From assembly GCA_026416295.1 (NCBI GenBank), contig JAOAFL010000118.1, positions 1 to 64,000 of the forward strand: DNA of 64,000 nucleotides, in the 5' to 3' direction. This document shows, in pieces, positions 48,068-63,006 of this stretch (within the stretch, counting starts at the first letter, position 1; each line of letters begins with the position of its first letter). The notes under the pieces are model-generated. The model was not told the DNA's origin. It saw nothing but the letters and a program-made list of their open reading frames with translations, and did no database searches. The DNA comes from Burkholderiales bacterium (GTDB lineage: Bacteria > Pseudomonadota > Gammaproteobacteria > Burkholderiales > SG8-39). Position numbers and translations under genes: made by a program.

Positions 48068-48691
48068 ATGGGCGCGCCGCTCACCGAACGTCAGGCCGAG
48101 ATTCTGCGGCTCATTCGCGAGCTGACCGAGGTGTCCGGCTTTCCGCCGACGCGCGCCGAAATCGCCGAACGCATGGGGTTTCGCTCGGTGAACGCCGCCG
48201 AGCAGCACCTGCGGGCGCTCGAGCGCAAGGGCGCGATCGAGATCTCCTCAGGCGCCTCGCGCGGCATCCGCGTGCGCGCAGGCGGCGCGCGCCTCGGGCG
48301 GCTGCTCGAGCTGCCTGTGATCGGCCGCGTCGCCGCCGGTCAGCCGGTACTCGCCGAGGCTCACGTGCAGGGGCGGTACGCGCTCGATCCGAACCTGTTC
48401 ACGCCGCGCGCCGACTACCTGCTGCGCGTGCGCGGCATGTCGATGCGCGATGCCGGCATCCTCGAAGGCGATCTGCTCGCGGTGCACCGCACTGCGGAAG
48501 CCGCGAGCGGCCAGATCGTCGTCGCGCGCGTCGGCGGCGAGGTGACCGTGAAGCGCCTGCGCAGGCGCGGCTACAGCGTGCAGCTGCTCCCCGAGAACCC
48601 GGACTTCGCCCCGATCGAGGTCGACGCGCGCGACGAGACGTTCGCGATCGAAGGGATCGCGGTCGGGGTGATCCGCAACGGCAGGATGTAG
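48068..48691 (+). CDS. lexA: LexA repressor
   Basis: [61 protein letters not shown] cleavage region; [21 protein letters not shown]. Confidence 0.97.
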
Positions 48692-48739
48692 CCGTCTCGC
48701 GGCCCGCGCGCGCGCTTGCCCCTATAATCGAAGCGCGCG

Positions 48740-50554
48740 ATGACCGATTCCGCCGCATCCGTCGCCGCCGTCCCGAAGTCGCGCTCCGCGCCGGTGCCAT
48801 TGCAGGGCGTCGATGCGCGCAGCCTCCTCGCCGACCGGGTCGAACAGCTCTACTGGCAGCTGCCGCTCGGGGTGGTCGCGACGGTGGTGGTCAGCTTCAT
48901 CGCCGCTTTCGAGTTGCGCGCCGGCCGTTATGCCGAGATCGTCGCCGGCTGGGGGGCGTTGGTGCTCATCATCTCGGCCGCACGCATGGGGCTTTACCTC
49001 TACTGGGTCCACTACGCCGGCCGCGGCGTGGTGGCGCCGGAACAGTGGCTGCGCTGGCTGGGAATCGCCGCCCTCGCAAGCGGCGCCACCTGGGGCATCG
49101 CGGCCTCGGTTTTCTTTCCGTCGCACGCCGACGAGCAGCAGGTGTTTCTCGCACTCCTGCTCACCGGGGCGATGGCGGGCGGCATCTCGATGTACGCGGC
49201 GTCCTGGCCGATGTACGCCGTCTACGGCGCCGGCATCGCGCTGCCGTTCACCTACGTGCTCGCGACGTTCGGCAACCGGCTGTTTACCGAGGTCGCGGTG
49301 CTCGTGCCGGCGTTCTACGCGGTCTGTGTCGCGATCGCCTGGCGGCTGAACGAGGTGTTCGACTCCGGCTACCGACTGCGGCACGCCTATCGGCGTCTGA
49401 CCGACGCCAACGCCGAGCTGAATCAGCGGCTGCAGCAACAGCTCGCCGAGCTGACAGAAGCGCGCCGCCAGGTGGAAGCATCCGGGCGCAAGCTCGCGCT
49501 CTTTGTCGAGCGCTCGCCGATCGCGGTCCTCGAACTCGATCCCGACGGGCGAATCCGCGAGATCAACCGCGCCGCGGAACTGATCTTCAGCTACGCACCG
49601 GACGAGATCGTCGGCGAATCGGCGCGGCGCCTCGTCCTTCCCGAGCATCACGCCGAGTTCGACGCCCAATGGCGGCACCTGATCGAGACGCGCGAGCCCC
49701 TCGCGCGCCTTCGACTGCGCAACGTGCGCCGCGACGGTATCCCGATCGTCTGCGAGTGGACCGTGACTCCGCTCGTCAACCCGGGCGGCGAGGTCGTCTC
49801 GGTCATCGCGCAAGGCCGCGACATCACGCAGGAGCTGGAGGCCGAGCGCGTGAAGAAGGAATTCACCTCGACGCTGTCGCACGAGCTGCGCACCCCGCTC
49901 ACCTCGATCATCGGCTCGCTGCAACTCGTCAATTCGGGAGTGATGGGCGAGCCGGACAAGGAGGTCCTCGAACTCACCGTCGTCGCCGAGCGCAACGCCC
50001 AGCGCCTGCTCGACCTGATCAACGACATCCTCGACATCGAGAAGATCGAGTCGGGCAAGCTCACGCTCGCGCCCGAGCCGCTCGCGCTGGAGGACGTGCT
50101 GCGCGAGGCGCTGGTGCTCAATCGGGCGTTCGGCGAGCGCTTCCGCGTGCGCTTCGAGCTGCGCGCCGAGCCGCCCTCGGTCCGGGTGCACGCCGACCGC
50201 AAGCGCCTGCTGCAGGTGCTCACCAACCTGCTGTCGAACGCTGCCAAGTTCTCGCCCGAGGGCGGCACCGTCGAGGTGAGCCTGGAACAGCGCGGGGCGC
50301 GAGTGCGGGTCGGCGTGCACGACCGCGGCCCGGGGATTCCGGAGAATTTCCGCGCGCGGATCTTCAGCCGCTTCGCGCAGGCGGAGTCGGCGGCGACGCG
50401 CCAGAAGGGCGGCACAGGCCTGGGACTCGCGATCTGCAAGCGGCTGGTCGAGATGATGCAAGGCACGATCGGTTTCGCAGACCGCGAAGGCGGCGGCACG
50501 ACGTTCTTTTTCGAACTTCCGGTGCTCGACGCCCCCGCCGCGCGCGCTGCCTGA
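48740..50554 (+). CDS. Membrane-bound PAS-sensor histidine kinase
   Basis: Multi-TM N-terminus, PAS domain, H-box FTSTLSHELRTPLTSIIGSLQ, N/G boxes LLSNAAKFSP, DRGPGIPENF, GGTGLGLAICKRLVE. Confidence 0.94.
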   Translation: MTDSAASVAAVPKSRSAPVPLQGVDARSLLADRVEQLYWQLPLGVVATVVVSFIAAFELRAGRYAEIVAGWGALVLIISAARMGLYLYWVHYAGRGVVAPEQWLRWLGIAALASGATWGIAASVFFPSHADEQQVFLALLLTGAMAGGISMYAASWPMYAVYGAGIALPFTYVLATFGNRLFTEVAVLVPAFYAVCVAIAWRLNEVFDSGYRLRHAYRRLTDANAELNQRLQQQLAELTEARRQVEASGRKLALFVERSPIAVLELDPDGRIREINRAAELIFSYAPDEIVGESARRLVLPEHHAEFDAQWRHLIETREPLARLRLRNVRRDGIPIVCEWTVTPLVNPGGEVVSVIAQGRDITQELEAERVKKEFTSTLSHELRTPLTSIIGSLQLVNSGVMGEPDKEVLELTVVAERNAQRLLDLINDILDIEKIESGKLTLAPEPLALEDVLREALVLNRAFGERFRVRFELRAEPPSVRVHADRKRLLQVLTNLLSNAAKFSPEGGTVEVSLEQRGARVRVGVHDRGPGIPENFRARIFSRFAQAESAATRQKGGTGLGLAICKRLVEMMQGTIGFADREGGGTTFFFELPVLDAPAARAA

Positions 50555-50562
50555 GGAATCCC

Positions 50563-50955
50563 ATGCCCCAGCGACCGCTCAATCGCATTCTTTACATCGA
50601 AGACGAGGAAGATATCCAGCGTATCGCAAGGCTCGCCCTGGAGCGGATCGGCAAGTTCACCGTCGAGGTGGTCGGCGATCCGCTCAAGGCGATGGAGGCG
50701 ATCGCGGCGTTCGGTCCGGACCTGGTGCTGCTCGACTGGATGATGCCCGGCATGGACGGCCCGACCCTCTTTCGCCGCCTGCGCGAGGACGAGCGAACGA
50801 AGCACCTGCCGGTGGTGTTCATGACCGCGAAGGCCTCCGCTGCCGAGCTCGCGGAGCTGCAGCAGCTCGGTGCGGCCGGAACAATCTCCAAGCCGTTCGC
50901 GCCGAAGGAGCTTCCGGACCAGCTGCGCGCGATCTGGAACGCGCTGCCCGACTAG
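50563..50955 (+). CDS. Single-domain response regulator
   Basis: ILYIEDEEDIQRIA, LVLLDWMMPGMDG, VVFMTAKAS, GTISKPFAPKEL. Confidence 0.93.
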   Translation: MPQRPLNRILYIEDEEDIQRIARLALERIGKFTVEVVGDPLKAMEAIAAFGPDLVLLDWMMPGMDGPTLFRRLREDERTKHLPVVFMTAKASAAELAELQQLGAAGTISKPFAPKELPDQLRAIWNALPD

Positions 50956-52224
50956 TCAGGCGAGCTTCTGAGTCGATTCGGCGCCCGCGGCGCCGAGGCC
51001 CTGATCATACTTGCGCGACAGAAAACCGATCACCTCGTCGGCGTTGCGAAAGCGCGCGTCGCGGTCTTTTTCGAGCAGCTTGTCGAGCAGCGGCTGGTAG
51101 CGTGCGAGCGCCTGCGGCAGCGGCGGCGGCGGCGTGTTCAGATGATGCAGCGCCACCTCGACCGCGGTTTCGCCGTCGAAGAGGTGTCGGCCGACCAGCA
51201 TCTGGTAGAGCAGCACGCCGGCGCTGTAGATGTCGGTGCGCGTGTCGAGCGCGACGCCGCGCACCTGCTCCGGGCTCATGTAGCGCGGCGTGCCGAGGAT
51301 CTCGCCCGCCGCAGTGCGGTCCACCGCGTCGACGTGCTTGGCGATGCCGAAGTCGACGATTGCCAGGCTGCCGTCGGCGCGGAACATCAGGTTCTGGGGC
51401 TTGAGATCGCGGTGCAGGATCCCCTGTTCGTGGATGTCGCCGAGCGCGTACATCAGCTCGCGAAAGATGCGCAGCGCCTCCGCCGGCGGGAGCGCCCTGC
51501 CCCCGAGCCGCTGACCGAGGTCGCCGCCTTCGAAGAACTCCATCACGAGGTACGCGTGCTCCTCGGCCACGCCGTGGCCGTAGATGCGCGCGACATGCGG
51601 GCTGCGGATGCGGGCGATCAGGTTGTACTCTTCGAGGAACCGCTCGAGCGCCCTGCGGCTCGCCATGATCTCGCGGCGCAGGATCTTGACCACCAACGGC
51701 TCGTCGTCGCCCTCGCGCGAGGCGAGATAGACGCGCGAGGTGCCGCCTTCGCCGATCAGCCGCAGCACGCGCACGCCGGGAATGCGAATGCGCGCCCCGA
51801 GGAGGTGCCCCTCCATGCGCGCCGCGACCTCGGGCGGGACGGTCTTCTCTTCGCGGCTGCGGGTGAGTTCGCGCACCGCCATGACGAGGCGCTCGCGCGT
51901 CAACTCCTGCTTGCGTTGATAGTCGTCGGCGCCCGCCTTCATCGCGCGCACCGCCACGCTCTCGTTGCCGGCGCCGGTCAGGAAGAGCACCGGCGGGCAG
52001 TCCGGGCGGCGCTTGAAGGCGGCGAGCCACTCGAGGCCGTCGCCGCGGCCGAGCATGTAGTCGAGGATGACGAGCGCGTAGTCGCCGAGCGGGAAGCGCT
52101 CGTCGGGCATGTCGTGCACCAGCGGATCGAGCTCTCCGATCTCGACGCCCGGCCATTCCTGCTTCAGGTAATGCGCGAGCAGCCCCCGCAGGTCCTCGTC
52201 GTCGTCGATGATCAAGATGCGCAC
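50956..52224 (-). CDS. Receiver domain fused to Hanks-type Ser/Thr protein kinase
   Basis: REC: ILIIDDDEDLRGLL, LVILDYMLGRGDG; kinase: LIGEGGTSRVYLA, VVKILRRE, HRDLKPQNLMF, VDFGIAK, GTPRYMSPEQ. Confidence 0.94.
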   Translation of the reverse strand: MRILIIDDDEDLRGLLAHYLKQEWPGVEIGELDPLVHDMPDERFPLGDYALVILDYMLGRGDGLEWLAAFKRRPDCPPVLFLTGAGNESVAVRAMKAGADDYQRKQELTRERLVMAVRELTRSREEKTVPPEVAARMEGHLLGARIRIPGVRVLRLIGEGGTSRVYLASREGDDEPLVVKILRREIMASRRALERFLEEYNLIARIRSPHVARIYGHGVAEEHAYLVMEFFEGGDLGQRLGGRALPPAEALRIFRELMYALGDIHEQGILHRDLKPQNLMFRADGSLAIVDFGIAKHVDAVDRTAAGEILGTPRYMSPEQVRGVALDTRTDIYSAGVLLYQMLVGRHLFDGETAVEVALHHLNTPPPPLPQALARYQPLLDKLLEKDRDARFRNADEVIGFLSRKYDQGLGAAGAESTQKLA

Positions 52225-52230
52225 GGGGCC

Positions 52231-53343
52231 TCAGGCCGCCACCCGCAGCGCGACGACGTCCACCGGACCGGCTTTGCCCTTCAGCGCGAGCCGGCGCCGA
52301 TCGAGCACGGTCGCGCGTCCGAGCACCTCGGCGAGCGACAGCATCGCGCGCGGACCGATCAGGATCTCGTTCGGCTGCGCGTTCTGCATCAGGCGCGCGG
52401 CGACGTTCACCGCGTCGCCGATGATGGTGTAGGTGACGAAGTTCGGCGCGCCGACGTTTCCCGCCACCACCTCGCCCGCCTCGATGCCGACGCCGATACC
52501 CGTGGCAAGCCCGTAGCGCACGCGCCAGCGCTCGCCGAGCGGCGCAAAGCGCCGGATCATGTCTTCGGCGCACGTGAGCGCCCGTACGGCGGCGTCGGGC
52601 TGCTGCACTGGGATGTTGAACCCGACGAGCAGGCTGTCGCCCGCCATGCTGAACACCGTGCCCTCGTGATCGTGCGCCGCCGCGGTGAGGATCGTGAAGA
52701 ACTCGTTCAGCATGGGCACCACCTCGGCCACCGGCACGACTTCCGACAAGTGCGTAAAGCCGCGCAGGTCCGCGAACAGGGCGACCACCGCGCGCCGTTC
52801 GCTCAGATCGCGGAAAACGTCGCGCCCGGCCGACGCTTCCGCGAGCACGCGCTCGACGAGCCGCGGCGACAGGTAGCGCGCGAACGTCCGGCGGATCGCC
52901 TCCTTCTGCGCGATCTCGGCGGCGAGACGCCGCGCCTCCAGCTCCTTGCGCGTCTCGTGCAGGCGCCGCAGCGTCTTCACGCGCGCGATCAGCTCTTCGC
53001 GATGGATCGGTTTGGACAGGAAGTCGTCCGCCCCCGCTTCGATCCCGCGCACCCGGCTCTGGGCATCGTCGAGCGCGGTGACGAGCACCACCGGAATGAG
53101 CGCCGTCGCCTCGTTCGTCTTGAGGCGCCGGCACACCTCGAAGCCGTCCGGGCCGGGCATCAGGACATCGCAAATGACGAGATCCGGTGGGGCGGCCTGC
53201 ACTGTCGCGAGCGCCGCGTTACCGTCGTGCGCGACGACCGTGTGCATGCCTTCGCGCTTCAGCCACATCTCCAGGAACGCGGCCATGTCCGGGTCGTCGT
53301 CCACCACGAGCACCCGGAACGGGGCCGCCGTCTGCTCAGGCAT
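52231..53343 (-). CDS. Receiver domain fused to class III nucleotide cyclase
   Basis: REC: VLVVDDDPDMAAFL, LVICDVLMPGPDG, DDFLSKPIHREEL; cyclase: LFADLRGFTHLSE, GTVFSMAGDSLLVGF, YTIIGDAVNVAARLM. Confidence 0.92.
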   Translation of the reverse strand: MPEQTAAPFRVLVVDDDPDMAAFLEMWLKREGMHTVVAHDGNAALATVQAAPPDLVICDVLMPGPDGFEVCRRLKTNEATALIPVVLVTALDDAQSRVRGIEAGADDFLSKPIHREELIARVKTLRRLHETRKELEARRLAAEIAQKEAIRRTFARYLSPRLVERVLAEASAGRDVFRDLSERRAVVALFADLRGFTHLSEVVPVAEVVPMLNEFFTILTAAAHDHEGTVFSMAGDSLLVGFNIPVQQPDAAVRALTCAEDMIRRFAPLGERWRVRYGLATGIGVGIEAGEVVAGNVGAPNFVTYTIIGDAVNVAARLMQNAQPNEILIGPRAMLSLAEVLGRATVLDRRRLALKGKAGPVDVVALRVAA

Positions 53344-53641
53344 AGACGACCCGGACCCGGGCGAGGTAATCCGCGTACGCGGCGATGCAAGTTTCGAGCG
53401 CGGCGCGGTCGCCAGAGGTCGCGCCCTCCTCGATCTGGCGACCGATCTCGGACACGCGGGCGAAACCGTAGGAGTTCCCGACACCCTTCATGCGGTGTCC
53501 GAGATGGCGCAGCTGCGCCATGTCGCCCCCCGCGAGCGCCGCGCGCAGCGCTTGCAGCTCTTTTGCGCGGTTCGCGAGGAAGGTCGGAATCAGATCCTCG
53601 AGGTCTTTTGCGACCGTGACGGTGTAGGCGTCTTCGTTCAT
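53336..53641 (-). CDS. HPt (histidine phosphotransfer) domain protein
   Basis: LRHLGHRMKGVGNSYGFARVSEIGRQIEEGA, HPt-type active helix. Confidence 0.88.
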   Translation of the reverse strand: MNEDAYTVTVAKDLEDLIPTFLANRAKELQALRAALAGGDMAQLRHLGHRMKGVGNSYGFARVSEIGRQIEEGATSGDRAALETCIAAYADYLARVRVVYA

Positions 53642-53700
53642 CGGCGCATTATAGGGAAGCGGCTGCACTCCCGGGGGGACAAGCGCAGCGATGAGGCGAT

Positions 53701-56700
53701 TCAGTGGAAGTCGCGCGAACGCGCCGCGAGCGGGCCGAACGTCCGCGCGAGCAACGGATCGTGATTTTCCAGCCGCCGCGCGACCAGGTGCACCGTTTCG
53801 CCCTGGCGTTCGATCACCCCGGCGGCGCCGAGCAGCCGCGCCCCGAGCAGCGCCCGCCGTTCGCGCTCAACGACATCTCGCCCGACGATCACGTTGGCGC
53901 AGCCGGTTTCGTCCTCCAGCGTCACGAACACGACGCCGCTTGCGGTGTCGGGCCGCTGCCGGCAAGTGACGAGGCCCGCGGTGCGCATCCGCGCACCGTG
54001 CCGGGCGGCCGAGAGCGCCGCCGTACTCGCAAAACCGAGCGTCGCAAGCTGCGGCCGCAGGAGTGCGAGCGGATGGCGCCCGAGGGTGAGGCCGAGGCTT
54101 GCGTAGTCGGCAGCGATCTCGGCCGCCTCGGTCGGCGGCGAAAGCGCGGCTGCGCTGTCTTCGCGCGGCGCGGCCATCGGCGGCCGAGGCTCGATCCCGG
54201 AAGCCTGCCAGCGGGCGGCTCGCCGATGCCCCGCGAGCGAGGCGAGCGCGCCGGCTGAGGCAAGACAGCCGAGGTCCTTGCGATCCAATCCCGCCCGCAG
54301 CGCCAGCTCGGCGACCGAGCCGAGCGGCCGCGCCGCGACGATGCGCCGCGCGGCCGCCTCCGACAACCCTTTCACCATGCGCAAGCCCAGACGCACCGCC
54401 TTGCCGCGCTCGCCCTCTTCGAGCGTACAGTCCCAGTCGCTTGCGCAGACATCCGGCGGGCGCACCTCCACCCCGTGGCGGCGCGCATCTTGCACGAGTT
54501 GCGCCGGCGCATAGAAGCCCATCGGCTGGCTGTTCAGCAACGCGGCGAGGAACGCCGCCGGATGATGGCGTTTGAGCCAGGCCGAGACGTATACGAGCAG
54601 CGCGAAACTCGCCGCGTGCGATTCCGGAAATCCGTAGTCGCCGAAGCCGAGGATCTGGCGGTAGATCGCATCGGCGAATTCGGGCGCGTAGCCGTTTCGC
54701 GCCATGCCTTCCTTCAGCCGCGTCTCGAAATGCTCGAGCCCCCCCTTTTTTCTCCACGCCGCCATTGCGCGGCGAAGCTGATCGGCCTCGCCCGGCGTGA
54801 AGCCGGCGGCGACCATCGCGAGCTGCATCACCTGCTCCTGGAAGATCGGCACGCCGAGCGTGCGCGCGAGCACTTTTTCGACCGCGGCACTCGGATAGGT
54901 CACCGGTTCCAGTCCCTGGCGGCGCCTGAGGTACGGATGCACCATGCCGCCCTGAATCGGACCCGGGCGCACGATCGCCACCTGGATCACCAGGTCGTAG
55001 AAGTTTTCCGGCCTCAGGCGCGGCAGCATGCTCATCTGCGCGCGCGACTCGATCTGAAAGACGCCCACGGTGTCGGCGCGCCGGATCATGGCGTAGGTTT
55101 CCGGGTCTTCCGGCGGCACCTCGTCCATGCGCAGGCCGACGAAAGCGAGCGCCTTGCGGATCGCGCTGAGCATGCCGAGGCCCAGCACGTCCACCTTGAG
55201 GAGCCCCAGCGCCTCCAGATCGTCTTTGTCCCACTGGATCACGGTACGCTCCGCCATCGCCGCGTTCTCGACCGGCACCAGCGCCGAGAGCGGCCCCCGC
55301 GAGATCACGAAGCCGCCCACATGCTGCGAAAGATGCCGCGGAAAGCCGACGAGTTCGGTCGCGAGCGCGGCAAGCTGCTGCGTGCGCCGATCGGCCGGAT
55401 CGAGCCCGGCTTCGGCAAGGCGCGCAGGCAGCACCGCACGTCCGTCCCACCACGAGACGGTCTTCGCGATCCGATCCACCTGCGCGGGCGGGAAACCGAG
55501 CGCCTTGCCGATGTCGCGCAGCGCGCTCCGCGGCCGGTAGCAGATGACGGTCGCGGCGAGCGCCGCCCGCTCGCGGCCGTATTTCTCGTACACGTACTGG
55601 ATCACCTCTTCGCGCCGCTCGTGCTCGAAATCGACGTCGATGTCGGGCGGCTCGTTCCGCTCGCGCGAGACGAACCGCTCGAAGAGCAGGCTCATGCGCG
55701 CCGGGTCCACTTCGGTGATGCCGAGGCAGTAGCAGACGGCGGAATTGGCGGCCGAACCGCGCCCCTGGCAGAGGATGCCGCGCGAGCGCGCAAAGCGCAC
55801 GATGTCGTGCACGGTGAGAAAGAACGCCTCGTAGCCGAGCTCGGCGATGAGCGCGAGTTCGTGTTCGACCAGCGCGCGTACGCGCGCCGGCGCGCCCTCC
55901 GGGAAACGCCACGCGAGACCCTCCATCGTCAGCCGGCGCAGCCAGCTCGCCGGCGTCTCGCCGGCGGGGACCAGCTCTTCGGGGTATTCGTAGCGCAGCT
56001 CCTCGAGCGAAAACGCGCAACGCTCGGCGATCGCGAGCGTTTCGGAAAGAAGCGCCGGCGGATAGAGACGCGCAAGCCGGAGCCGCGAGCGAAGGTGCCG
56101 TTCGCCGTTCGGAAAAAGCGCCCGACCGCATTCGGCGACGGGCCTGCCCAGCCGCACCGCGGTGAGCGCGTCCTGCAGACGCCGGCGCGAGCGCACGTGC
56201 ATGTGCACATCGCCTGCGGCCACAAGCGGCAGGCCGCTTGCGCGCGAAAGCTCGCCGAGCCGCGCAAGCTCTGCGCGGTCGTCGGGCCCGCAGTGAAGTT
56301 CCGCCGCGATCCAGGCGCGGCCCGCGAAGCGCTCGGCAAGCCATGCCGCCCAGTGCTCTCCCCCTTCGTGCGGAACGAGCAGGGCGAGCAGGCCGTCGCC
56401 GCTTGCGCGCTCGAAGTCCTCGGGCGCGACCGCATAGGTGCCCTTGGGAGCGCGCCGGCGGGCGGCGGTGACAAGCGTACAAAGCGCACCGTAGGCGCGC
56501 CGGTCGGGCGCGAGAAGGACGAGCTTTGCGCCTTCCGGCAGGCGGAACTCCGCGCCGACGAGAAGCTTCAGGCTCGCCTCTCTCGCCGCCAGGTGCGCCC
56601 GTACGATCCCGGCGAGCGAACACTCGTCGGTGAGCGCGAGCGCCGCGTAGCCGAGCGTGGCGGCCCGCGCGACGAGTTCTTCCGGGTGCGAGGCGCCGCG

Positions 56701-56769
56701 CAGAAAAGTGAAGTTCGAAAGGCAGTGCAGCTCGGCGTAGCCGGGCAGCGTTTCACGCAAAGAGGCCAT
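53701..56769 (-). CDS. dnaE2: Error-prone DNA polymerase DnaE2/ImuC
   Basis: PHP domain [23 protein letters not shown]; polymerase [46 protein letters not shown]; follows imuA-imuB. Confidence 0.96.
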
Positions 56770-57976
56770 GCAGCCGCCAGCCCTGCGCATCGCGGTAGAT
56801 CCAGAGGAGCGAATCCCGGGCACGCGCGACGAAGTAGTCGCGCCGGATTTCGGCGCCGTCCCACCAGCCGCTCTCGATCCGCTCGGGGCCGGCGAGCAGT
56901 TCGAACTCGCCTTCGGCGAGCGGTCGCGGCGGATCGAGCAGCCACAGCGGCCGCGCTCCGTAGGCGGGCAAGACGATGCCTGCCGCCCCCTCGGGCGCAA
57001 GGCGCAGCCAAGCGCGCTCGGGCCGGTGCTCGGAACGAAGCCCGAGACCGTGCACCGCGTCGGTTCCCAAACGCGCCTGCAACCGATCGAGGAGCCGCCG
57101 CCAGTCCTCGCTCGCCTCTTCCGGTCCGGGGAAAAGCGCGCCAGTGCGGCCGGGAAGCGGCTCGATCTCCACCGCCGCGAGGCGCACCGCCTCGGCCGGT
57201 GCCGGAAGCGAGAGCCGCTCGAGCCGCTCGCGAAGCAGCCGCGCGAAGTGCTCCGCATCGCGCGCCGGCGCGGCAAGGCCTACTTCTACCGTCGTCGCTG
57301 CACGCTTCGGGTGCAGGAGTTCGAGCACGAAGCGGCGCACGCCGCTACAGCGCGCGACGAGAAAGCCCTCCAGTTGCGCGAGCAACCGGCGCGCGGCGAA
57401 AAGCGTCGCCTGCGCTTCGGCGACCGGCGCCGGCAATTCCAGCCTCGCCGCAAAGCGCGCCGGCGGCACATAGAGCGTCCTCGCCTCGGGTAGCCGCCCG
57501 AGCGCGCGATCCAGTTCATCCACCAGCGTCTGCCCGAAGCGTCTTGCCACGCCTTCGCGCGGCAGGCGCATCAGCGCACCGAGCGTGTGCACACCCAGGG
57601 CGTCGAGCAGTTCCTCGCGGTCCGGATCGAGCCCGAGCACGGCGACCGGCAGCGCCTCGAGCGGCAGTCCGCCGCCGGCCGCGCGCCAGAGCGCCGCGCG
57701 TGCGGTCGGCGCGAACGCGATCCGTGCGTCGAAGCCGAGCTGCGCGAGCCCGGCGCGGATTTCGCGCGCGAGCCTTCCCGCGCCGCCGTAGCGCTTCAGG
57801 CTCGCGCCGAGTTCTGCGGCTAGACCCTCGGGTGGCTCGAGCGACACCTTCGGCGTATAGCGCTCCATCCAGAGCGCCACCGCCTCCAGCGCCGCGCGCG
57901 CCGCTTCAGGCGACGCATGCCCGCGCGCGCGCGCCTGCGATTCGAGCTGCGGCAGGTGCAGCGCCACCCACAGCAT
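56753..57976 (-). CDS. imuB: Y-family DNA polymerase-like protein ImuB
   Basis: [54 protein letters not shown]; overlaps dnaE2 and imuA. Confidence 0.92.
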
Positions 57977-58601
57977 GAAACGGCTTCTTCAGAGCGAGGA
58001 CGATCGGCGCGCGCGCCGGTGCGCCGCGGCGCTTGAGCAGGCGCACCGCAAGCGGCCCGCCGGCGGGCTCGAGCAGCAAGCGCAGCGGCGCGGGCGAGAG
58101 CTCCCGCGCCGCCTGCGGCGCGCGAAAGAGCAGCGCGAACGCCGGCCCGCCCTCGGCCGCCACCGCGAGCTGGCGCAGTTCCGCGTAGTCTGCACGCCGC
58201 AGCCAGAGGAGAATCGCCTCGCAGACCCGAGAGCGCAGCACCTGTTCCGCCGCCCAGAGCGCATCGCGCCGCGAAGGCGCTCCCACCACGGTGAAGCGCT
58301 CGAGCGCGACGCCTGCGGCGGCAAGGGCGGGCGCATAAGGCAGGTGCGGCGGCGAAATCCAGGCGATGCGGCCGCCTGATGCACTCGCCCGCGCGAGCGC
58401 CGGCAATACGAGCTGGAGCTCGCCGATCCCTTCGCAGGGCGCGAGGATTTCGACGAGCGCTCCCCGGGGCCAACCGCCGCCGGGAAGTTCCCGGTCGAGC
58501 GCCGCATAGCCGGTGGGCAGCGCAGGGTGTGTGACCTCGCCGACGGGGGCCGTGCCGCGCCAGAGGTCTCCGCGCCGGAGCAGGGCTTCGAGCGAACGCA
58601 T
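57906..58601 (-). CDS. imuA: RecA-like SOS mutagenesis protein ImuA
   Basis: LPTGYAALDRELPGGGWPRGALVEILAPCEGIGELQLVLPALARA; first gene of the imuA-imuB-dnaE2 cassette. Confidence 0.9.
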   Translation of the reverse strand: MRSLEALLRRGDLWRGTAPVGEVTHPALPTGYAALDRELPGGGWPRGALVEILAPCEGIGELQLVLPALARASASGGRIAWISPPHLPYAPALAAAGVALERFTVVGAPSRRDALWAAEQVLRSRVCEAILLWLRRADYAELRQLAVAAEGGPAFALLFRAPQAARELSPAPLRLLLEPAGGPLAVRLLKRRGAPARAPIVLALKKPFHAVGGAAPAAARIAGARARACVA

Positions 58602-58604
58602 GGA

Positions 58605-58624
58605 TACTGTATTTATATACAGTA
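58605..58624. promoter_or_regulatory. LexA (SOS) box
   Basis: TACTGTATTTATATACAGTA, CTGT-N8-ACAG with fully symmetric TACTGTAT/ATACAGTA ends; 3 bp from the imuA ATG. Confidence 0.95.
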
Positions 58625-58976: not shown

Positions 58977-60509
58977 CTACTTTCTGCGCAGTTGCTTCGT
59001 CTGCGCCATGTAGGCGGCGATGAAGTCGCGGCCGAACGCCTTGTTGAAATCGTCCTCGGCCTCGCGCGCGAGCTTCTGCTGATACGCGGAGAAAAGGTCC
59101 CACAGCCGCGCCTTGCGGTTCAGACCGAGTCCGCCGGAAGCCTTGGCGAGCTCCTCCTCCAGCCTCTTCGGATCGAAACGCCGCAGCGCACCGAGCACCG
59201 CGGCACGCATGCCGGCGACGAGCGCCGCCTCGTGCGCGCGCACGTCGTCGAAGGCGTCGGTGACCGCCTGCACCGGCGGCAGAAACCCGCTGGTGCCCTC
59301 CTGGGTATCGAGGAGAAAATCGATCGCCTCCCGCGGGTCGCTCATCAGCTTCAGCGGATTGTTGTCGCGCGAAGCGACCATGGTGCGGTCTTCCGCCCTG
59401 AACTCCTTCTTCGCCTCGGCACGCGCCGCAAGGAGCGCCATCACGCCTTCGACCGCCGCGCGTACGATGGCGCCGCTCTGCCGCAGGAACATTTCGATTT
59501 CCCGCTCGTCGCCGAACGACCGCTCGGGCAGCCCCGCGCCTTCGAGAAACGCCCTCGCTGCGCGCTGCAGACCGTCGAGCGCGCTCGCCGGCGACGAAAT
59601 GCCGATCAGCGTCGGTTCGGCGAACCGAGGTCCCTCGGCCGCCAGCTCGCTCTGCTCGGTCCCTGGCTCGACGAACGCTGCCCTTTCGGATGCCGCCTCC
59701 AGAGCGGCGGCCTCGCCCTCGTCCGTTGCGAGCGGCCCGGCTGAAGTTCCGTCCGCCGGCGCCTCATCGAAGATTCCGCGCTCCGGCAGCGGCAGCTGAC
59801 CTCGAAGCTGCGTCACCTCCAGAAGCACGCTGTCTTCGACCGAGATCACCGCCTGCGCCGCAAGCGTCCCTTTTCCGACGAAGGTCGGCTCGTCGAAGAT
59901 CTCGCCCGGCATCGCCACGCCGACGCCGGTCGCCTCGGCGAAAATCCTTTCTTCGGAAGTCACCGGGGGAACGTCGGGCGTTGCGGCCGACCCGGTCGCA
60001 TCGACACGTTCGACGAGGGGCGACCGCCGCTCCGAAATCTCCGCAGGCGGCACGGCTTCCTCGGTGCCCGGCGCGGTGATTTCTGCCTGCGATGAGCCGA
60101 TATCGGCTTCGGCGACGAAGCTTTCGTCCTGTGGTCCGCAAGACGCGTCGTCTGCGTCTGCGGGCAGCGGCGCGGCCGTCTCCGCGGGAATCGGAAACGC
60201 CAGCAGCTCGAGTTCGTACTCGCCGATCTCCAGCCGGTCGCCGGCCTGCACTTGCAGACGGCTGCCCGACCCGTGGCGATGCCCGTTCACGAACACAGGG
60301 TTGACCTTCGACAAGACCGTGAGCCACAGCGCATCGCCCTCGAAGGCGAGTTCGGCGTGCGTTCGCGATACCCACTTCTTGGGATCGTCCAGCGCGAGGG
60401 TGCATTCCGCGCCGCGCCCGATCGTGAGGCGCAGCGCCTCGAACGTGCGCTCGCCGAGAAACAGCACGTTCTCCGGGCCTTTGCGGTAGAGCCGCAGCGC
60501 GATCGTCAT
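58977..60509 (-). CDS. tagH: Type VI secretion FHA-domain protein (TagH-like)
   Basis: N-terminal FHA LTIGRGAECTLALDDPKKWVSRTHAEL; acidic linker; C-terminal region resembling T6SS FHA proteins. Confidence 0.87.
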   Translation of the reverse strand: MTIALRLYRKGPENVLFLGERTFEALRLTIGRGAECTLALDDPKKWVSRTHAELAFEGDALWLTVLSKVNPVFVNGHRHGSGSRLQVQAGDRLEIGEYELELLAFPIPAETAAPLPADADDASCGPQDESFVAEADIGSSQAEITAPGTEEAVPPAEISERRSPLVERVDATGSAATPDVPPVTSEERIFAEATGVGVAMPGEIFDEPTFVGKGTLAAQAVISVEDSVLLEVTQLRGQLPLPERGIFDEAPADGTSAGPLATDEGEAAALEAASERAAFVEPGTEQSELAAEGPRFAEPTLIGISSPASALDGLQRAARAFLEGAGLPERSFGDEREIEMFLRQSGAIVRAAVEGVMALLAARAEAKKEFRAEDRTMVASRDNNPLKLMSDPREAIDFLLDTQEGTSGFLPPVQAVTDAFDDVRAHEAALVAGMRAAVLGALRRFDPKRLEEELAKASGGLGLNRKARLWDLFSAYQQKLAREAEDDFNKAFGRDFIAAYMAQTKQLRRK

Positions 60510-61096
60510 GTCAGTGCCGCCGGTCTGCCCGCGAGCATCTCGCAATAGCGCTCGGGGCCCGGCATGCCTTCGATCGAGAACTGCCATCCCGGCGCGAGTT
60601 CCGAATCGCGCGTCTGCCAGGCGCTGCGCGGGGCGCCGCGGTCCGCTGTCCCCGAAGGCGACGGCGGAGGCGCAAGCGCGCCGACCGCCGCGTCGAAGTC
60701 CTCCGGACCGATCGCCGGCGAGAGCGCCGCGGTCGCGACCCGCTCGGCCGCGTCCAGCCAGCCGCTCAACGTCGTCAGCGCCGCATCGACCGCAAGCGGC
60801 CTCGCGCCGAGCGCATACACGAGGGTCAGCGGGTAATAGCGACCGACGCAGTCCACGCTGGGCGCCATCACGCCCGTCCAGCCGGAAGGCGTCAGAACCC
60901 CGGGCGCGAGCACGAAGCGCCACACCGGCGCCGTGAGAAACCGCTCGCGCCAGGCCGCACCGAGCGCCTCGCGGCTTGCGTCGATCAGCCCGTCGAGCCA
61001 ACGCTCCCACGGCGCGCGGAACTCGGCGGGAACCCTGCGAACGAGGAAATCGCCGCTCGAGGGCAGCTTGCCGATCCAGCCGCAGGCGCCGTTCAC
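60506..61096 (-). CDS. tagF: Type VI secretion-associated protein TagF
   Basis: GWIGKLPSSGDFLVRRVPAEFRAPWERWLDG, GRYYPLTLVYALG. Confidence 0.9.
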   Translation of the reverse strand: MNGACGWIGKLPSSGDFLVRRVPAEFRAPWERWLDGLIDASREALGAAWRERFLTAPVWRFVLAPGVLTPSGWTGVMAPSVDCVGRYYPLTLVYALGARPLAVDAALTTLSGWLDAAERVATAALSPAIGPEDFDAAVGALAPPPSPSGTADRGAPRSAWQTRDSELAPGWQFSIEGMPGPERYCEMLAGRPAALT

Positions 61097-63006
61097 GAGC
61101 GTGCTCCCTGCGCGAGCCGTTCGCGCGCCTGCCGCACGAGCGCCTCGTCGGCACGCTGCGGCGGCCCCTCGGCAAGACCTGCGCGCACGTGGCGCGCAAG
61201 GCTCGCCGCGACGTCGCCGCCCCAGTACGTCGCGAGCACCGAGGCGATTTGCGCGGCCTCTCCCGCCCTCGCTTCGCAGAGCGCGAGGTAGGCCGCAAGC
61301 GACGCCTCGAGCGTCGCGCTGCCGGGCGCTTCGCGCACCGATTTCTCGAGTGCGGCCGCCGCGAGCGGGGTCAGTGCGTCGCGCAGCGCCGCACGATAGG
61401 CGCGGCGCGCCTGCGCGATCACTTTCTCGTGCTGCGAGAGCCCGACGCGCTGCACGAGCGGGACCGGCGTCGTGGCAAGCCGCTCGAGCGTGTCGAGTGC
61501 CCGGAGCAGCGGCGGTGCAGGCGCTACGGCGCGCGCGGCTGCGGCGAGCTGCACGCGCGCCTCGCGTACGGCGGCGCCTGCGTCGCCGATCCACCCGCGG
61601 TTGCCGAAGTAACTCGCTGTCCATGCCGCGGCGAGCGCGACGCTTGCCGCCGCGATCGCGGCGTACGCGAGCGGCCGCCAGGCGCGCCGGCGCTTGTCAG
61701 GACGGGCGAGTCCCTGCTCCGGAAAGATGACTTCCTGCAGCAGCCGGCGGATGAAGAACGCCTTGCCGCTCGGGCTCGCCGCGTGCGCCGGCGCCCGCTC
61801 CAGGTCGAAAGTGCGCGCGATCGCGCCGAGCACCCGATCGATCGGATTGCCTTCCTGCGTGCCGCTGGTGAAATAAACCCCGCGCAGCATCGGCGGCTCG
61901 TGGTTCTGCTGCTGCGCGAACGCGAGCACGAGAAACTCGCTCAGGAGCGGTCCGAGCGCATGAAACTGCTGCGGAAAGCGGTAGATCGCGGCGCGCCGCT
62001 GCAGGTCGGGCTCCCGATGCAACCGCTCGATCAGAAGCGCGTGCAGGCGCTCTTCGAGCGCCGCGAACTCGGCCTCGAACCTTCCCGCGGCGCCTGTCTG
62101 CCCCGACACCGTCTCCGGGTCGAACGTCACGCCCCAGACGCGCGCACGCGCCTCGGCGTCCAGCTCGCCGAAGAATTCCATGAAGCCGGCGAGCAGGTCG
62201 GCCTTGGTCACCATCACGTACACCGGAAACCGCAGGCCGAGTCGCGCGTAGAGTTCCGCAAGCCGCATACGCACGTGGCCCGCATAGCGCAGCCGCTCTT
62301 CGCGCGTCCATAGCAGCAGATCGGATACGCTGACGGTCACGATCGCCCCGTTGAGCGGCAGCCGCGGGCGGAACTGCTTCAGCAGGTCGAGGAAGCCGTA
62401 CCACGCCGCGGCGTCGGCCTTGCGGTCGCTCTCCTGCGTCGTATAGCGGCCGGCGGTGTCGAGCAGCACCGCCTCGTCGGTGAACCACCAGTCGCAGTTT
62501 CGCGTTCCGCCGACGCCCTGAACCGCCGGCGCGCCGCTCGCCCCGCCGAGGATGAAGCGCAGGCCGGAGTGCACGAGAGCCGTGGTCTTGCCGGATCCCG
62601 GCGCGCCGATGAACACGTACCAGGGCAGCTCGTGGAGTCGCTGCGTCTCGCCGCCCGGTCCCGTGAAGCGGGCCTGTTTGAGCACCGCAGCCGCGGCGAC
62701 GAAGCGCGCGCGAAGGATCTCGATTTCCTCCGCGGCGCGCGCTGCCGAGTCGCCTTCGGCGCCCGCCTGCGCGATCGCATCGAGCATGCGCCCGGCCGCC
62801 TCGCGGGCGCGCCGCGTACGAAACCATTCCCAGCAAAGCCACGCGGCGCCGGCGAGCGCGATGCACACGATCCGCTGCCAAGGCGCATCGAGCGGTCGCA
62901 GATCGCCCACGCCGACCGCGTCGCCCGCGAACCAGACGACCAGAGCGAAAGCGAGCCAGGCGGCGGCGCCGATCGTCCAGCGGTTTGCGGCGTTGCGCCA
63001 GTTCAC
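61093..63006 (-). CDS. tssM: Type VI secretion protein TssM (IcmF), unusually short (637 aa)
   Basis: LPWYVFIGAPGSGKTTALVHSGLRF, NCDWWFTDEAVLLDTAGRYTTQES, PVYVMVTKADLLAGFMEFF, third TM then about 180 aa before the stop. Confidence 0.92.
   Translation of the reverse strand: MNWRNAANRWTIGAAAWLAFALVVWFAGDAVGVGDLRPLDAPWQRIVCIALAGAAWLCWEWFRTRRAREAAGRMLDAIAQAGAEGDSAARAAEEIEILRARFVAAAAVLKQARFTGPGGETQRLHELPWYVFIGAPGSGKTTALVHSGLRFILGGASGAPAVQGVGGTRNCDWWFTDEAVLLDTAGRYTTQESDRKADAAAWYGFLDLLKQFRPRLPLNGAIVTVSVSDLLLWTREERLRYAGHVRMRLAELYARLGLRFPVYVMVTKADLLAGFMEFFGELDAEARARVWGVTFDPETVSGQTGAAGRFEAEFAALEERLHALLIERLHREPDLQRRAAIYRFPQQFHALGPLLSEFLVLAFAQQQNHEPPMLRGVYFTSGTQEGNPIDRVLGAIARTFDLERAPAHAASPSGKAFFIRRLLQEVIFPEQGLARPDKRRRAWRPLAYAAIAAASVALAAAWTASYFGNRGWIGDAGAAVREARVQLAAAARAVAPAPPLLRALDTLERLATTPVPLVQRVGLSQHEKVIAQARRAYRAALRDALTPLAAAALEKSVREAPGSATLEASLAAYLALCEARAGEAAQIASVLATYWGGDVAASLARHVRAGLAEGPPQRADEALVRQARERLAQGARS

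Follow-up and report, generated by a model that had tools for sequence, protein, structure and literature searches.

A conserved five-gene cassette beside lexA and dnaE2 in betaproteobacteria, probably a branched phosphorelay ending in a Ser/Thr kinase and a nucleotide cyclase

The 64,000-nucleotide stretch analyzed here ("the window"; positions 1 to 64,000 of contig JAOAFL010000118.1, assembly GCA_026416295.1, a betaproteobacterial metagenome-assembled genome, or MAG) carries five adjacent signaling genes, encoding a membrane histidine kinase (HK), a lone receiver protein (REC), a receiver-fused Hanks-type Ser/Thr kinase (STK), a receiver-fused class III nucleotide cyclase (CYC) and a histidine phosphotransfer protein (HPt). 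Judged from sequence and gene order, it is probable that this module forms a branched phosphorelay of the Spo0 type with two enzymatic outputs. What we observed, and what this proposal is built on, is the anatomy of the proteins, their intact phospho-acceptors and kinase residues, two blocks that resemble transcription units, the co-inheritance of the genes, outputs that are separable from the rest, and an HPt-CYC-STK fusion.

In such a relay, the membrane HK would sense a cue through its six-helix/PAS input and, as is known for its family, would autophosphorylate on H381; the phosphoryl group would then pass to D58 of the lone REC, on to H49 of HPt, and finally to the receivers of STK (D55) and CYC, switching the Hanks kinase and the class III cyclase. 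The parts of a Spo0-type topology are present: an HK with HisKA, phospho-His and HATPase, a receiver lacking an output, an HPt His, and terminal receivers on the outputs. We infer which way the phosphate moves, that it activates the outputs and does not inhibit them, and what the cyclase makes.

The first-pass annotation had described five open reading frames (ORFs) with these domains converging with no gap, and this description held in full: Pfam recovered the domains at the same positions (Table 1), and the stop codon of REC (50955) directly abuts that of STK (50956) on the opposite strand. CYC shares 8 bp with HPt and is separated from STK by 6 bp, giving a tight HPt-CYC-STK operon that converges on HK-REC. 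For HPt we prefer the start at the ATG at 53641, because a gene beginning at the earlier GTG would contain a conserved TATAAT box, and the true start of HK may lie downstream of the annotated one, with conservation setting in near residue 22-25. No sensor family for HK came from Pfam or from a PDB fold search with its AlphaFold model, the matches being to the kinase core and PAS only; the closest solved kinase to STK is StkP.

Table 1. Features of the module and its surroundings (coordinates are those of the window)
Feature	Position	Strand	Description
HK gene	48740..50554	+	604 aa; PAS_4, HisKA, HATPase_c (Pfam)
HK anatomy			Six predicted membrane helices (residues 26-about 200), long signaling helix, PAS 257-365, HisKA with phospho-His H381, HATPase_c (Pfam, alignment, AlphaFold model)
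Lone REC	50563..50955	+	130 aa; phospho-Asp D58, Thr88, Lys110 (Pfam)
STK (REC-Pkinase)	50956..52224	-	422 aa; REC-Hanks Ser/Thr kinase; receiver D55/T83/K105; kinase K180, HRD D273, DFG D291 (Pfam)
CYC (REC-Guanylate_cyc)	52231..53343	-	370 aa; REC-coiled coil-class III nucleotide cyclase (Pfam, PDB alignments, AlphaFold model)
HPt	53336..53641	-	101 aa; PF01627; phospho-His H49 (numbering of the residue-conservation analysis)
TATAAT box	48723..48728	+	In the lexA-HK interval, close before HK
TATAAT box	53648..53653	-	In the dnaE2-HPt interval, close before HPt
lexA	48068..48691	+	48 bp upstream of HK, same strand (Pfam)
dnaE2, imuB, imuA	53701..58601	-	SOS mutasome; upstream of HPt, same strand (NCBIfam)
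SOS (LexA) box CTGTATTTATATACAG	58607..58622	-	Upstream of imuA

The five genes travel together. A first search of 61 genomes gave STK orthologues (72-81% identity) in 13, and the genome collection yielded about 25 contigs with one, each from a betaproteobacterial MAG; HK, REC, STK, CYC and HPt lie in the same converging order at 18 loci besides the window (L018, L035-L038, L040-L042, L044, L045, L048, L049, L051-L054, L056 and L057). Co-occurrence in other genomes, by which the first-pass annotation had proposed that its idea be judged, was thus borne out, both by these loci and by a nested pattern of presence and absence in 37 genomes of the same family. Against the nearest relative (L035), dN/dS is about 0.2-0.3 for each of the five genes. 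Where other genes have been inserted (L041, L042, L056, L057), they always sit between the two convergent operons; the inserts are a cytochrome b561 gene, a hybrid CHASE2-HK-REC-HPt and its neighbors (L042/L122) and, in two cases, a DUF3391-HD-GYP gene.

Of the 37 family genomes, the 15 that have an HK orthologue are the very ones that have an HPt orthologue; STK occurs in 13 of these and CYC in 12, and neither is found in the remaining genomes. By output content the 15 divide into 11 with both, two with STK only, one with CYC only and one with neither (HK versus STK, Fisher p = 3e-8, from counts that ignore phylogeny). STK stands without CYC at G016/L046, G027/L039 and L047, CYC without STK at G012/L103, and in G013/L104 HK-REC-HPt persists with neither, HPt abutting REC directly. 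Wherever the upstream contig is intact, HPt accompanies every STK or CYC. Loss of the whole block is also seen: G011 keeps an N-terminal remnant of HK directly after lexA, and in G001 lexA is present and the module gone. From these patterns, HK-REC-HPt looks like a core from which the two outputs can be lost separately.

Further evidence comes from more distant relatives. In G006, of the same genus, one 930-aa ORF comprises HPt, REC-cyclase and REC-kinase (43-48% identity to the window proteins) and adjoins two hybrid HKs. In another family of the order, G051/L058 (L106) has a CHASE2-hybrid HK, HPt, REC-CYC and REC-STK on a single strand, without lexA, and in G164 (L123) and G712 (L153) HPt lies beside REC-STK without a cyclase. 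Elsewhere in the family of the window, relatives of HPt are flanked by a hybrid HK on one side and an ordinary response regulator on the other (L114, L116, L118, L120), while at L113 HPt and a response regulator have as neighbors a non-hybrid CHASE3/PAS HK and its own lone REC. Relay logic of the same kind would thus occur with transcriptional outputs, those of the present module being, as predicted, two enzymes.

Several observations weigh against this proposal. The HPt-CYC-STK fusion was found once, in a genome that is 64% complete; the relay of G013, left with neither output, must serve a different target or have served one in the past; and in a tree of receivers, built from few columns, the lone RECs group with one another, apart from the main clade of receivers from hybrid HKs. 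In addition, the wider region (NAMPT, MFS, SRAP) is also syntenic, and background synteny explains part of the linkage of the module, since the NAMPT/MFS order is conserved too. If the region is simply conserved in general, the five could be unrelated signaling genes that are chance neighbors in one bacterial family. We regard this as highly improbable: the block goes missing as a whole (G001, and G011 apart from an HK remnant), its parts remain neighbors in another family, where identity is down to about 45%, and occur as a fusion, an internal reordering at L060 keeps the set, and insertions fall between or outside the convergent operons, never within them. The fusion and the distant operon have already largely refuted it.

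The position of the lone REC in the tree bears on the wiring as well. With an HK that is not itself a hybrid and a lone REC that stands apart from hybrid-HK receivers, HK might phosphorylate the output receivers directly, leaving the lone REC and HPt as a phosphate sink or separate branch, as with LovK/LovR in Caulobacter; phosphate-sink arrangements are known (PMC5964349). Direct transfer needs no HPt, however, and HPt is always found with STK or CYC where the upstream contig is intact, persists after both outputs are lost and is fused to both in G006, so that we consider direct branching unlikely. The shuttle role of the lone REC within the proposed relay is unaffected by its placement in the tree, and MrrA provides an example of a lone REC acting as a relay intermediate (PMC5964349; PMC9981736). 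We also considered a split hybrid kinase, with the lone REC as the detached receiver of a hybrid, an idea to which the receiver tree (again, of few columns) gives no support.

The residues needed for phosphotransfer and for kinase activity are strictly kept. H381 and the SxxSHELRTPL motif of HK are invariant in 17 loci, the HPt His and the Asp/Thr/Lys set of the lone REC in 25 loci each, and the Asp/Thr/Lys set of the STK receiver together with the kinase Lys, HRD, DFG and APE in 24. In the CYC receiver, the acidic pair, Asp and Lys are kept in nearly all members. The catalytic domain of CYC is a more complicated case. Its metal-binding D192 and D236, Thr306, and the transition-state residues Asn313 and Arg317 are invariant in the alignment, and Thr306, identified from PDB alignments as the partner of the adenine-recognizing Lys, is kept; the position of that Lys itself, however, is Ser, Asn or Gly in 26 of 26 members (Ser in the window). 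Compared with class IIIb adenylate cyclases, CYC therefore has the metal and transition-state residues and lacks the adenine Lys. Catalysis is plausible on the residues retained, and the substrate is not assignable from sequence.

The first-pass annotation had proposed a single HK-REC-HPt relay delivering phosphate to two outputs, protein phosphorylation and cyclic-nucleotide synthesis. The relay and its branching have gained from the conserved set, from the constant company of HPt and the outputs (given an intact upstream contig), from the loci with one output or none and from the fusion; cyclic-nucleotide synthesis, and cyclic AMP as the product, have become uncertain because the adenine-recognition Lys is replaced across the family. 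CYC could instead be a pseudo-cyclase or a user of a non-standard nucleotide, in keeping with that replacement, with the dispensability of the CYC arm (lost in L039, L046 and L047) and with a match to the PADLOC Pycsar-cyclase profile (1.4e-19, though this is partly general class III similarity). We hold this to be somewhat unlikely, as D192, D236, Thr306, Asn313 and Arg317 are invariant, as they would be in an active enzyme. A role in anti-phage defense was considered separately and set aside, the PADLOC matches reflecting generic kinase and cyclase similarity only.

The setting of the module, with the SOS genes lexA on one side and imuA-imuB-dnaE2 on the other, had been missed by the first-pass annotation. 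Were this link functional, HK-REC would be expressed with lexA and HPt-CYC-STK with imuA-imuB-dnaE2, and the relay would be part of a DNA-damage or mutagenesis response. lexA adjoins HK in about 20 loci, and is still beside it where dnaE2 or SRAP is gone (L051-L053); in L050 and L054 imuA-imuB intervene, so that lexA-imuA-imuB runs into HK-REC, and family members without the module keep the plain order lexA-imuA-imuB-dnaE2. On the other side, dnaE2 of the window precedes HPt at a distance of about 60 bp, and the strong SOS box before imuA in the window has an equivalent near imuA in ten other loci (L036, L037, L039-L041, L044, L046, L047, L049 and L057).

Other findings point away from SOS control. 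A scan for SOS boxes found them upstream of imuA and, weaker, of lexA only, with no match reported beside HK or HPt. An exact TATAAT box precedes HPt in 19 of the 22 loci (against 0.004 per 65 nt as background), and a TATAAT box precedes HK in 15 of 20 (eight exact, seven with one mismatch); the same scan of the loci found none upstream of STK or CYC and one near match upstream of REC, and a promoter scan that required -35 and -10 elements together gave no match. Since TATAAT boxes lie upstream of both HK and HPt, each half of the module probably has its own promoter. Moreover, dnaE2 is absent or reversed beside HPt in L045 and L051-L054, and the module members of L105, L106, L123 and L153 lie far from lexA and dnaE2. 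Taken together, a role for the relay in the SOS response is improbable in our judgment. Read-through from the SOS operons as the main control is weakened by the TATAAT boxes and by the loci with dnaE2 missing or reversed, although read-through from the imuA and lexA promoters may contribute. Because the module has its own TATAAT boxes and members outside the family are away from SOS genes, the SOS link appears to be a lineage-specific neighborhood, and SOS control is unproven. Quite unlikely, in our view, is a reading in which the module would belong to the SOS/mutasome locus as an arm dedicated to it: HK-REC would share part of its expression with lexA, the kinase and cyclase fed by HPt would share theirs with imuA-imuB-dnaE2, and an envelope or cytoplasmic signal could then tune damage-induced mutagenesis by way of Ser/Thr phosphorylation and of a nucleotide messenger that may be non-standard.

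The Bacillus Spo0 relay (KinA-Spo0F-Spo0B-Spo0A) shares the topology of a non-hybrid HK, a lone REC shuttle, a phosphotransferase and a terminal receiver; it has a single DNA-binding output, however, and Spo0B is not a monomeric HPt-domain protein, whereas the module has a canonical HPt and, as proposed, two enzymatic outputs. In the CckA-ChpT-CtrA/CpdR system of Caulobacter one phosphotransferase serves two terminal receivers, as proposed here, but CckA is a hybrid HK, ChpT is DHp-like, and the outputs are DNA binding and proteolysis rather than a kinase and a cyclase. Among eukaryotes, transfer from HPt to a receiver controls a cyclic-nucleotide level (RdeA-RegA, Dictyostelium) or a Ser/Thr kinase cascade (Sln1-Ypd1-Ssk1, yeast), although RegA is a phosphodiesterase and Ssk1 merely binds a kinase, and neither relay has both outputs as REC-fused enzymes. 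The nearest tested bacterial parallel is HptB-HsbR of Pseudomonas aeruginosa, in which, as proposed for the module, a separate HPt feeds a receiver protein with enzyme outputs acting on Ser phosphorylation (PMC6482189). HsbR, however, is a REC-PP2C-GHKL kinase/anti-sigma protein acting on HsbA, in contrast to a Hanks kinase with a second REC-cyclase and a non-hybrid HK; no PP2C or STAS partner was found in the module locus, where the output domains are Pkinase and Guanylate_cyc. Literature searches, confined to open-licence papers and thus not proof of absence, gave no match to a description of the five-part combination. The parts and the relay logic are already known; the two-enzyme output set is undescribed in the searchable open literature.

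If this proposal is correct, a phosphorelay would branch at a single HPt toward two distinct enzymes, and one heritable cassette would link the three principal signaling currencies of bacteria: His-Asp phosphate, Ser/Thr phosphate and, probably, a cyclic nucleotide. Since one output or the other has been lost in nature, the wiring can be probed by comparing loci, and the G006 fusion, a single chain, lends itself readily to biochemistry. A functional lexA/dnaE2 link, if true, would tie a sensor kinase to the control of mutagenesis.

Some features of the related loci deserve mention. A DUF3391-HD-GYP gene, predicted to encode a cyclic di-GMP phosphodiesterase, adjoins the module in three genomes (L041:11283-12482, L057:8559-9764, L060:1836-3071), and its insertion is possibly a third messenger arm. 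In G003, the insertion that falls exactly between the halves of the module (L122:7251-12928; L042:7430-13107) comprises a lone REC, a FecR-domain protein and a CHASE2 hybrid HK that carries an HPt of its own at the C terminus. L055 and L060, contigs of one MAG, share sequence at the STK gene and, if joined, would read REC-CheB, REC-HD-GYP, STK, HPt, CYC, HD-GYP and then REC and HK on the opposite strand, that is, all five parts, rearranged. A small gene lies between dnaE2 and HPt in L036, L037, L044, L046-L049 and L056, and is TPR-like in both loci tested (L036, L046).

Most REC-STKs of about 40% identity in the class have no HPt or HK as neighbors. Such orphans lie directly beside thyA, the thymidylate synthase gene, in several Burkholderiales genomes (L108, L110, L111; same layout in L109, L125, L127); those beside thyA (L108-L112, L125, L127) share the REC-Hanks architecture of the module STK and, unlike it, have no adjoining HPt, HK or cyclase. 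In G164 (L123:8773-19001), the REC-STK and HPt are followed closely by a Pil-Chp-like cluster with receivers, a methyl-accepting chemotaxis protein and a 1518-aa multi-HPt CheA, and a REC-DNA-binding regulator is found on the opposite strand. In the window itself, type VI secretion genes (FHA protein, TagF; 58977-61624) begin directly after imuA, and a further Ser/Thr kinase, with which cross-talk of the REC-kinase is possible, is encoded just beyond the window end (G000:C137:66650-67465).

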